Source of the DNA: Zoogloeaceae bacterium
GTDB lineage: Bacteria > Pseudomonadota > Gammaproteobacteria > Burkholderiales > Rhodocyclaceae
NCBI GenBank assembly: GCA_031290955.1
Contig: JAISLJ010000146.1
Span: 1-33,471, forward strand
Length of the DNA: 33,471 nucleotides
Direction of reading: 5' to 3'
Both the position numbers and the translations under genes were made by a program. The notes beneath the pieces are model-generated. The model saw nothing but the letters and a program-made list of their open reading frames with translations. It made no database searches and was not told the DNA's origin. How positions within the stretch are numbered: position 1 is the first letter of the stretch; each line of letters starts with the position of its first letter. Shown piece by piece: positions 1 to 4,722 of this stretch.

Positions 1-242
1 GTATATTCTGCGGTACCCCAGAACAGATTAGCAGCAATGTTGTTCGATTTTTTAACGCCTAAAGGCACCAAGTAACGCTTCCCCTCTTGGCTGGTGGTAA
101 TCCCCAGAGGACGTCCATCGCGGGACAGTTCGATAATGAAGGGAATTTCCTTCTTTTCCCAGCCAAAGACCGGCAGATGGCGGCTGGGATCGGGATCATC
201 CGCCTTGCGCTGGTAATAATCGTGGAGTGCTTGCAGGATCAT
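1..242 (-). CDS. cas8c: Cas8c/Csd1, type I-C Cascade large subunit (N-terminal part only, runs off the left edge)
   Basis: Minus-strand translation from ATG at 242: MILQALHDYYQRKADDPDPSRHLPVFGWEKKEIPFIIELSRDGRPLGITTSQEGKRYLVPLGVKKSNNIAANLFWGTAEY, typical of the Csd1 N-terminus; start overlaps the cas5 stop (ATGA). Confidence 0.93.
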   Translation of the reverse strand, partial: MILQALHDYYQRKADDPDPSRHLPVFGWEKKEIPFIIELSRDGRPLGITTSQEGKRYLVPLGVKKSNNIAANLFWGTAEY

Positions 243-930: not shown

Positions 931-960
931 ATTCTAACATAGTGTTCCATATAGTGGTAA
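931..960 (-). promoter_or_regulatory. Predicted sigma70-like promoter for cas5-cas8c
   Basis: Minus strand TTACCA (955-960), 18 nt, TAGAAT (931-936); about 40 nt upstream of the cas5 TTG start. Confidence 0.55.
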
Positions 961-981
961 CGATTTTTCTGTTATAGGGTA
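945..981 (+). promoter_or_regulatory. Putative partial protospacer (PAM TTC 945-947, protospacer from 948) for the crRNA-like RNA
   Basis: TTC|CATATAGTGGTAACG versus pseudo-spacer CATATTGTGGTTGCC: positions 1-5 and 7-11 identical, mismatch at 6; 19/34 overall. Confidence 0.7.
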
Positions 982-988
982 ACATTCA

Positions 989-1020
989 GTTTCGCCGAAT
1001 ACACAGGCGTGGATTGAAAC
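989..1020 (+). CRISPR. Solitary type I-C-like CRISPR repeat (32 nt), 5' part of a putative CreR-type crRNA-like gene
   Basis: GTTTCGCCGAATACACAGGCGTGGATTGAAAC: 32 nt, CGCC/GGCG stem, and the conserved I-C 3' end GGCGTGGATTGAAAC, which would give an 11-nt TGGATTGAAAC handle after Cas5 cleavage. Confidence 0.85.
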
Positions 1021-1052
1021 CATATTGTGGTTGCCTTTGGCATGGTACAGAA

Positions 1053-1078
1053 CCAGAGCCGGATCCCTCCGGCTCTGG
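1053..1078. terminator. Perfect 11-bp hairpin between cas3 stop and crRNA-like element
   Basis: CCAGAGCCGGA TCCC TCCGGCTCTGG, 4 bp beyond the cas3 stop. No strong U tract on either strand, so terminator function is uncertain. Confidence 0.55.
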
Positions 1079-1082
1079 CCTG

Positions 1083-3518
1083 TCACAGCACCAATGCCCC
1101 CGGATCGCCCGGTACACCGTCCACATTGACGCCCAGCGCCTTGTCATAGAGCAGGTCGTTTGCTTCCGACTGCACATACAATCCGGGACAATCGCTGCCC
1201 AGCGGCTCGATGTCGCCTTGTTCGAGCAGGCGTTTGATGTCCCATCGGTAGAGCGTGACGCCATAGCGTTGCAGCTTGCGCATGAGCCAGCGCTCTGGGC
1301 CTTGTTGCTTCAGTCGCTGGAGCCACATGTCGATCCCGCCAGCGTTTTCTTCGCTGCCATCATCATTTTCATCGCGCTGGTAACGGACAAAGACCGTCGC
1401 GCCTTCCTCGTTGTCAATCAGATGAAAGGCTTCCGCCGCATCACGGAATCTGACTGCGCCTGTTCTCCGATCCACACGCAACATATCGCAAATCCCCTTT
1501 GCGTCCAAAATGGCATCGCCATAGAGCTTGCGAAAATACCCGGCGAAACGTTCGACGCCCACCGGGTCTTCCTCTGGATGCAAGCCTGCCCACAATTGGC
1601 GGGTCTTTTCAGCCGCCATGCGCAGCAATCCTGGTGGCGCGGGTTGGGGCGGCACGAACACGTAGACATCGCCCTTTTCCAGCCGCCCTTCCCGATTGCA
1701 GCGCCCGGCGGCCTGGACAAGGGAATCCAGCCCCGCCAGGGCGCGATAGACCACCGGGAAATCCAGATCCACGCCCGCCTCGACCAGTTGCGTGCTGATG
1801 ACCCGAATCGGCGCGGGAGTCTCTTCCGCCGCCAGCGCCTGTCGCCGCGCCGACAGGGCGGTCTTGAGCGTCCGAATCACGTCGCTGCGATGATGGGCGC
1901 ACATCAGGCCAGACAGATGCCACAGGTTGCGCGGATCGCGCCTTTTCATGCGCTGGTAGAGATCACGCGCGTCGGCGCGGCGACCCACAATGACCAGGAC
2001 GGCATCATGCCGCATGATCTCATCCGCCAGATTTTCCCAATCGCAAGGCTGTGCGCAATCGGCGGGAAGATGAAAGCGCACCCGTTCCAGCGCGGCATAG
2101 AGTCCGGGCACGTCATCCACGATTTCCCGCACCTCGCCCGGCGCGAACCCGCGCAATCCGCGTTCACCCGCCAGATCAAAACTGACGCGGGCTTCCAGCG
2201 TCGGTTGCGTTGCCGTGCACAACACCAGGCTGACGCCATAATCCCGCACCAACAGGCGCAGGACATCGATCACCGGCTGGAGGTAGGCCACGGGCAACAA
2301 TTGCGCCTCGTCCAGCACGATGACGCTCTCCGCCAGATTGTGCAGCTTGCGGCAGCGGGAAGTCTTGCGGGCAAACAGGCTTTCCAGCAACTGCACGTTG
2401 GTGGTGACGACCAGCGGAGCGTCCCAGTTTTCGCAGGCGAGCCGGGAACGCGCCGTTTCCTGCCGCTCGTCCATTTCCGCGTTGCTGTGATGCTCGATGA
2501 CGTTTTCCTTGCCAAGAATGGCGCTGAAGACATCCGCCGTCTGCTCGATGATGCTGGTATATGGAATGGCGTAGATGACCCGGCGCTTGCCGTGCAGCTG
2601 CGCGTGTCGCAGGGCAAACGCCAGACTGGAGAGCGTCTTGCCGCCGCCGGTGGGAACGGTGAGGCTGAAAACGCCCGGCGTCAGCGTGGCCTTGGCGCGG
2701 CAAGCCTGCAAGACTTCGGCGCGCTTCCGGTTGACAGGCTGTTCTGCTTCCCCGCGCTGGACAAGCTGCTGCGCCATATCCCCCAGATGCTTCGTCAACA
2801 GGTCTTCCATTTTTGACAGCGACAAGAATCCCTTGCGGGTATGCGCCTTGGGAGGCGACATGAAGGCTTCGGTATCCAGGAAATCCGCATCCACCAGACA
2901 GGAAAACAACATGCGCACCCAGAGCGCGAAACGACCGGGAATGACTTCGTTCTTCCTGATGTTGTCGGTCTTGATGCTGCCGACTTCCGGCCACGCCAGT
3001 CTGGGCCGGAGAATGGCATCGGGAATGTCGGCCGCCAGCGCGTCACGCGCCTCTCTTTGGGCGTCGTCGGTTTGAAAACGCGCTTCCAAGCCTTTATCGA
3101 ACCAATTATCCAGCCCGCTATGGTGTCCGGCGATCAAGTAGGAAAGGATGCAGGCAAAGGCGGCGCCCAGGCGAGGTTCCTGTTCGGGCAGATATTTTTG
3201 CGCCCACAACGCCCCGGCGGCCGAATGCGTTTTATCGGCCCCCGCCACCCGACCTTCGATGTGCGCGTCCGGGTCGCCGCATTGCCGGATGTAACGCTGG
3301 AATCCGGCGCGAAATTTGCCAAGGTCATGCCAGATGCCTGCCCATTCCGCCCAAATCCCGGCGCCAAACACGGCGGCAAACTTCGCCGCTTGCCGCGCGA
3401 CTGCCTGTTGATGATCCGCCAGGTCGTGGGGCAGGAGTTTTCCATTCTCCTGTCGCAGGTGGGCAAGGAAGCACACTGCAGAGGAACTCCCGCCCCAATT
3501 GGAAATGTTTTCTTCCAT
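1083..3518 (-). CDS. cas3: Cas3 HD nuclease/helicase, type I-C
   Basis: ORF 1083-3728; likely start [10 protein letters not shown] at 3518. HD-domain region (…[21 protein letters not shown]…), Walker [17 protein letters not shown], helicase C motifs ([25 protein letters not shown]). Confidence 0.95.
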
Positions 3519-3644
3519 CACGAAACTCCCCGATGTATTCGCTACAAGACACTGGGATTGTACGCCACGCCTGTCGGTTTTGGAGGACGATGCGAGGAGT
3601 CGTCTGAAATGGAATTTCCCGACTTCCCCGAAAATTTCCCAACA

Positions 3645-3674
3645 TTGCGGGGGAAGTCCTGATTTGCTTATAAT
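3645..3674 (+). promoter_or_regulatory. Predicted sigma70 promoter upstream of hldD
   Basis: TTGCGG (3645-3650), 18 nt, TATAAT (3669-3674) in the divergent cas3/hldD intergenic region. Confidence 0.6.
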
Positions 3675-3720
3675 GCCACGCTTCATGATTCCTCGCGCCC
3701 GCGCTCTGGCGCTCCTCTCC

Positions 3721-4722
3721 ATGCCCAATCATATCGTCATCACCGGCGCGGCCGGGTTCATTGGTTCCAATCTCATCCGGGCGCTGAACCGGCGCGGGGA
3801 GACGGAGATCATTGCCGTCGACCACCTTGCGCACTCGGAAAAATTCCGGAACCTGGTCGATTGTGACATCGCGGATTTCCTCGACAAGGAGGATTTCATC
3901 GAGCGCCTCCAGCACGGCTGGTTCGATGGCGCGGTGCGCGCCGTCCTGCACGAGGGAGCCTGTTCCAACACGATGGAAACCGATGGCCGCTACATGATGG
4001 AAAACAACTACCGCTATTCCGCCATCCTGCTGGATTGGTGCCTGGGGGAAGAAGTGCCCTTCCTCTACGCCTCCTCGGCGGCGGTCTATGGTGGAGGCAA
4101 GGTGTTCGTCGAGGCGCGCGAGCACGAGGCGCCGCTCAACATCTATGGCTATTCCAAGTTCCTGTTCGACCAGTTCGTGCGCCGACGCTTGCCGGAGGCT
4201 TCCAGCCAGATTGTGGGCCTGCGCTATTTCAACGTCTATGGCCCAAGGGAGCAGCACAAGGAGCGCATGGCCTCGGTGGCCTATCACCATTTCCGGGAAT
4301 TCATGGAACAGAAGAAGGTACGACTTTTCGCGGCTTCGCACGGCTATGCCGACGGCGCGCAATTGCGGGATTTCATCCATGTGGATGATGTGGCCCATGT
4401 CAATCTCTTCTTCCTGGATCACCCGGAACAATCCGGCATTTTCAACGTGGGCACCGGGCGGGCGCAGAGTTTCAACGATATCGCCCTCGCCGCGGTGAAC
4501 GGTTGCCGGGCGCTGGCTGGGGAAGCGGCCTTGACGCTGGAGGAAATCGTCGGGCGCGGCTTTCTGGAATACATTCCCTTGCCTGAATCCCTAGAAGGAA
4601 AATACCAGCCCTTTACCGAAGCCGACCTTGCCCGCCTGCGTTCGGCGGGCTACGAGCAAGCTTTCGCCTCGGTGGAAGAGGGCGTTGCCCGCTATGTAGC
4701 CTGGCTTGGGCAACACGCATGA
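3721..4722 (+). CDS. hldD: ADP-L-glycero-D-manno-heptose 6-epimerase
   Basis: [36 protein letters not shown]…, NAD-binding GxxGxx[10 protein letters not shown] catalytic motif; characteristic HldD/RfaD sequence. Internal start of ORF 3499-4722. Confidence 0.93.

Follow-up and report, generated by a model that had tools for sequence, protein, structure and literature searches.

A lone type I-C repeat between cas3 and cas5 as a probable CreR-type guide RNA directed at the cas5 promoter

The DNA analysed here (hereafter the window, a 33,471-nt stretch from a Zoogloeaceae bacterium) carries a single crRNA-like unit in the cas3-cas5 gap of a type I-C system. Judged from its sequence, this element very probably encodes a CreR-type crRNA that would guide the type I-C Cascade to repress the cas5-cas8 operon. 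This reading is supported because the guide matches its own cas5 promoter in the pattern known from CreA (positions 1–5 and 7–11 after 5'-TTC), because a standalone repeat between cas3 and cas5 recurs in relatives with guide seed and target co-varying, and because the arrangement is also found in other families of the class. The same evidence upholds the original prediction, which had proposed a type I-C member of the CreR class. The features concerned are as follows.

3–242, minus strand: start of cas8c (TIGR01863), cut by the contig end
239–892, minus strand: cas5 (Cas5c; TIGR01876, E 1.7e-57), start at 892; encodes the predicted processing enzyme and heads the targeted operon
931–960, minus strand: predicted cas5 promoter TTACCA-18-TAGAAT, its -35 box within the protospacer
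945–947, plus strand: TTC, the type I-C PAM of the self-target, from the guide scan
948–979, plus strand: protospacer, matching guide positions 1–5 and 7–11, with mismatches at 6 and 12
980–985, plus strand: TAACAT, a tentative -10 element of the guide RNA gene
989–1020, plus strand: standalone degenerate type I-C repeat GTTTCGCCGAATACACAGGCGTGGATTGAAAC, 32 nt, with a CGCC/GGCG Cas5 stem and an 11-nt handle TGGATTGAAAC
1021–1052, plus strand: 32-nt pseudo-spacer (guide), seed CATATtGTGGT at 1021–1031
1053–1078, plus strand: 11-bp hairpin where a second repeat would otherwise lie, candidate terminator or RNA 3' stem
1083–3728, minus strand: cas3 open frame, stop near 1083, true start probably further in

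The system is assigned to type I-C because curated models identify the flanking genes as Cas3, Cas5c and the start of Cas8c, and these matches bear out the predicted position of the repeat between cas3 and cas5. The genome bin of the window is a 2.0-Mb assembly, 73% complete. No type I-C array of its own was found in this incomplete bin, so that an active type I-C system is an assumption here. The sole Cas1 match in the bin adjoins an array whose repeats have the type I-E form; in the same bin, at about 1429–2364 of L117 (G000:C148), a cas1-like gene neighbours an array whose repeats, GCGTTCCCCGCACGAGCGGGGCTGAACC, have this form.

A single 32-nt repeat on the strand opposite the cas genes had been described and was recovered at 989–1020 (+). 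GTTTCGCCGAATACACAGGCGTGGATTGAAAC is present once in the window, and shuffled sequences give an expectation of none at three or fewer mismatches. The window therefore holds one repeat and not the two or more near-identical, regularly spaced repeats of an ordinary CRISPR array. Across the assembly the exact 3' 15-mer of the repeat occurs once, and its few one-mismatch matches are scattered and not array-like. The degenerate 5' half does retain the CGCC/GGCG stem ascribed to it, directly abutting the 11-nt handle. The proposed match to the type I-C repeat class stands for the 3' end, which recurs in the arrays of many relatives, but not for the length, since those arrays have 37-nt repeats (3' end CGTGGATTGAAAC or similar) and the 32-nt window copy is shorter. 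Rfam returned only a sub-threshold CRISPR repeat match (21.1 bits against a cut-off of 45). The pseudo-spacer begins at 1021 as foreseen and runs for 32 nt, and the perfect hairpin expected at the second-repeat position is present, with 11 perfect pairs between arms at 1053–1063 and 1068–1078 (CCAGAGCCGGA-TCCC-TCCGGCTCTGG). Comparable hairpins are found in most relatives. The window hairpin has no T-run after it, and no canonical terminator for the guide RNA was found. By eye, a TAnnAT-like box lies at a place comparable to that of TAACAT in several relatives.

If the element is expressed, what would its guide recognise? A scan of both window strands gave, besides the guide itself, one outstanding site, CATATaGTGGT (948–958) against the guide CATATtGTGGT. 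Given the 11 TTC sites of the gap and its edges, TTC followed by a 10/10 seed match has a chance of about 1e-5, and the exact TTC-plus-seed site is unique to 945–958 across the 2.0-Mb assembly. This TTC-flanked match, the strongest evidence for a regulatory role, was overlooked when the element itself was correctly described. Within 860–1120 one sigma-70-like promoter was found; it faces cas5, is overlapped by the target site, and lies in a stretch where 53 bp separate target from cas5 start with no gene between. The window thus presents what characterises CreR loci: a degenerate repeat of the cognate class inside the cas locus and a guide partly complementary, with a PAM, to a predicted cas promoter.

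Of 399 genomes from the family of the window, 62 yielded a close type I-C cas5 in Cas5 searches, as did 23 of 369 sampled from the class. Among the 69 loci with both cas3 and cas5 located, the gap between them is at least 190 bp in 30 (window included) and shorter in the other 39; 26 of these 30 carry a standalone repeat, and other families of the class supply five further cases of the same arrangement. Two layouts are seen. Class A, like the window, has the repeat antisense to cas (window, L008, L014, L033, L034, L066, L069, L072, L074, L076, L079, L086 and L110), and class B has it in the cas direction (such as L040, L096, L107, L109 and L116). Taken by themselves, the figures for the repeat stem are modest, a stem of at least 4 bp being present in 14/27 against 36% in shuffles; class A does better, and several class B repeats are stemless. 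In the cas5 tree the window clusters with L008. Class A has a patchy distribution there, and well-supported branches force at least nine changes. A plasmid search returned mostly distant type I-C loci.

Guide and target change together across these loci. When each guide was searched against its own gap with no PAM rule, TTC preceded most of the best matches. With TTC required, 18 of 27 guides had a seed match of at least 9/10 within the gap of their own locus; among cross-locus guide-gap pairs, 1 of 666 did. In the 18 dereplicated pairs, which were selected on positions 1–5 and 7–11 with positions 6, 12 and later playing no part, the target matches the guide in all 18 at each of positions 1–5, in 3 at position 6, in 17, 18, 13, 16 and 14 at positions 7–11, in 6 at position 12, in 11 and 12 at positions 13 and 14, and mostly in fewer beyond. 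Guide position 6 corresponds to the base that is flipped out in Cascade. Of 24 loci, 14 have a protospacer overlapping a promoter-like site, against an expectation of 4.0. The original prediction was said to be refutable by related genomes in which repeat and pseudo-spacer seed are not conserved together, and the relatives do not refute it: guide-target pairing is maintained by covariation, with L008, L072 and L110 as exceptions.

In L008, the closest relative, the target CATGTGTGGTAGC follows TTC and is one base shorter at position 6 than the guide CATGTTGTAGTCGC. If a gap is allowed pairing is mostly restored, and otherwise it covers positions 1–5 only; the missing base may be a tolerated bulge or a sign of decay. 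L034 and L066 show a shift near position 9 similar to the L008 gap, and these two loci and L069 keep positions 1–5 and 7–8 with weaker pairing afterwards. No convincing target was found in the own gap of L072 or L110, and at L097 and L103 TTT stands in place of TTC.

The proposed mechanism begins with a short RNA made from the plus strand. Its lone repeat would provide the Cas5 stem and an 11-nt 5' handle and the hairpin would close its 3' end. Processed by Cas5, the guide RNA would enter the type I-C Cascade, and TTC with the 10-base seed match is predicted to bring the complex to 945–979, over the -35 box and part of the promoter spacer. There it would keep cas5, cas8 and the downstream genes from being transcribed. 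By analogy with CreA the pairing is probably too short for cutting by Cas3, and, as proposed for CreR, repression may be relieved and more Cas protein made when Cascade is drawn off by ordinary crRNAs or anti-CRISPR proteins.

Behind the targeted promoter, most class A relatives carry a small gene that ends just before cas5. Its product has 40–60 residues, with a strongly hydrophobic stretch and the consensus GLLRELRLLKDQ.P.HRFYA.WLL.L. A small hydrophobic gene of this kind (GLLRELRLL...RFYA.WLL) occupies the space from target to cas5 in L014, L034, L066, L069, L074, L076, L079, L086 and L120. It is missing in the window, L008 and L033, where the guide is predicted to govern cas5 directly. A Pfam scan of six of the small proteins gave no match above the cut-off. 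A profile search with the protein added a single strong copy, in G308 (L144); its remaining strong matches were the loci that had supplied the profile. The L144 module has its own standalone repeat and a TTC target with a 9/10 seed match, and it stands ahead of cas3 of a very divergent type I-C operon (Cas3 34% identical); the module therefore appears transferable.

The position of the class A gene behind the targeted promoter suggests a guard cassette of the CreTA/CrePA kind. A guide of this type may, in most class A relatives, also control this gene ahead of the operon, and the small membrane protein of such a cassette would be freed when Cascade is lost or blocked. The wider proposal, that the slot is a transferable guard cassette in which a Cascade-using crRNA-like RNA silences a small membrane protein that may act as toxin or alarm, with the window as a stripped form retaining control of cas only, is plausible though we consider it somewhat short of an even chance; it is put forward because class A relatives share a small-protein family, L144 holds an independent copy, a PhdYefM/PIN pair is found in L082 and the distribution on the cas5 tree is patchy.

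Other contents of the slot vary. L082 has the PhdYefM/PIN toxin-antitoxin pair with no standalone repeat, and L077 and L105 have a common frame of about 110 aa with neither a Pfam match nor a standalone repeat. In class B loci L040, L097, L103, L106, L107, L109 and L111 a different small hydrophobic frame ends inside the repeat or immediately ahead of it, and in several of them the last codons are the repeat itself (MWIET). Class B loci L096, L099, L100, L101 and L108 show conserved hairpins and no clear small membrane-protein frame; between target and guide they have a short frame after GGAGGG (such as ATGGCTAGAACCCATATGA). Their gaps possibly encode a structured or CreT-like RNA; Rfam families gave no match for L100 and L108.

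CreR RNAs regulate cas genes and have been reported for types I-B, I-E and V-A; the window resembles them in its crRNA-like element within the cas locus, its partial complementarity to a cas promoter and its lack of a toxin gene (PMC13131331, PMC12737573). It differs from them in belonging to type I-C, with predicted processing by Cas5 rather than Cas6 or Cas12a, and in its one repeat plus hairpin lying antisense between cas3 and cas5. The Shmakov 2023 survey of standalone repeats reportedly describes repeats conserved in cas loci with guides partly matching cas or cargo promoters. Among the sources consulted, the CreTA papers make no mention of type I-C and the reviews name I-B, I-E and V-A for CreR. 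The pairing rule of Halobacterium hubeiense CreA is TTC with pairing at 1–5 and 7–11 and with 6 and 12 free, and the CreA RNAs of CreTA in Haloarcula hispanica and H. hubeiense share this seed with the window; creA of H. hispanica is likewise a single repeat, followed by a terminator (PMC8501985).

Could the RNA then be an antitoxin (CreA) that silences a toxic gene as in CreTA or CrePA, with control of cas secondary? This would fit the small membrane-protein gene that immediately follows the targeted promoter in most class A relatives and the toxin-antitoxin genes filling the same slot in L082, and in those relatives the placing of a guide RNA over a small-protein-gene promoter recalls CrePA (PMC12737573). 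However, CreA targets a toxin promoter (PMC8501985), whereas the window promoter stands directly ahead of cas5 and leaves no room for a gene, as in L033 and L008; CreTA and CrePA were rejected for the window, which has no toxin gene between target and cas5. The relatives also depart from both models, since the toxin of CreTA is an RNA and theirs would be a small membrane protein (PMC8501985), and CreP typically has a KilA-N domain (PMC12737573) whereas their protein is short, hydrophobic and lacks a Pfam match. For the window we regard a guard module as unlikely.

Still less probable is a functionless remnant of a decaying CRISPR array. The repeat is single and shortened and the assembly has no array nearby, yet in diverged loci the seed and the TTC-flanked target are still paired, with drift at positions 6 and 12 and in the distal part. 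Decay is disfavoured because it would not preserve the seed-target match, and a remnant array was set aside for the window on this conservation. Least credible, and to be given almost no weight, is an RNA anti-CRISPR (Racr), a solitary mobile-element repeat that sequesters Cas proteins. Racrs do consist of a single repeat unit, and one has been demonstrated for type I-C, but they are phage-borne decoys with no conserved self-target (PMC10651486). The element considered here sits inside the cas operons of many lineages and its guide has a conserved self-target, a feature superfluous in a decoy; Racr was rejected for the window because the element is found within cas operons in many genomes and not carried on a mobile element.

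The CreR-type reading would add type I-C, a widespread subtype lacking Cas6, to the CRISPR systems with RNA-guided self-repression. The relatives offer many natural guide-target pairs for probing the minimal pairing at which Cascade represses without cutting, and the window packs guide, target and promoter into no more than 200 bp, which makes the prediction accessible to a small reporter. In the relatives, the presence of the linked membrane-protein gene points to a possible second layer in the form of a Cascade-coupled alarm.
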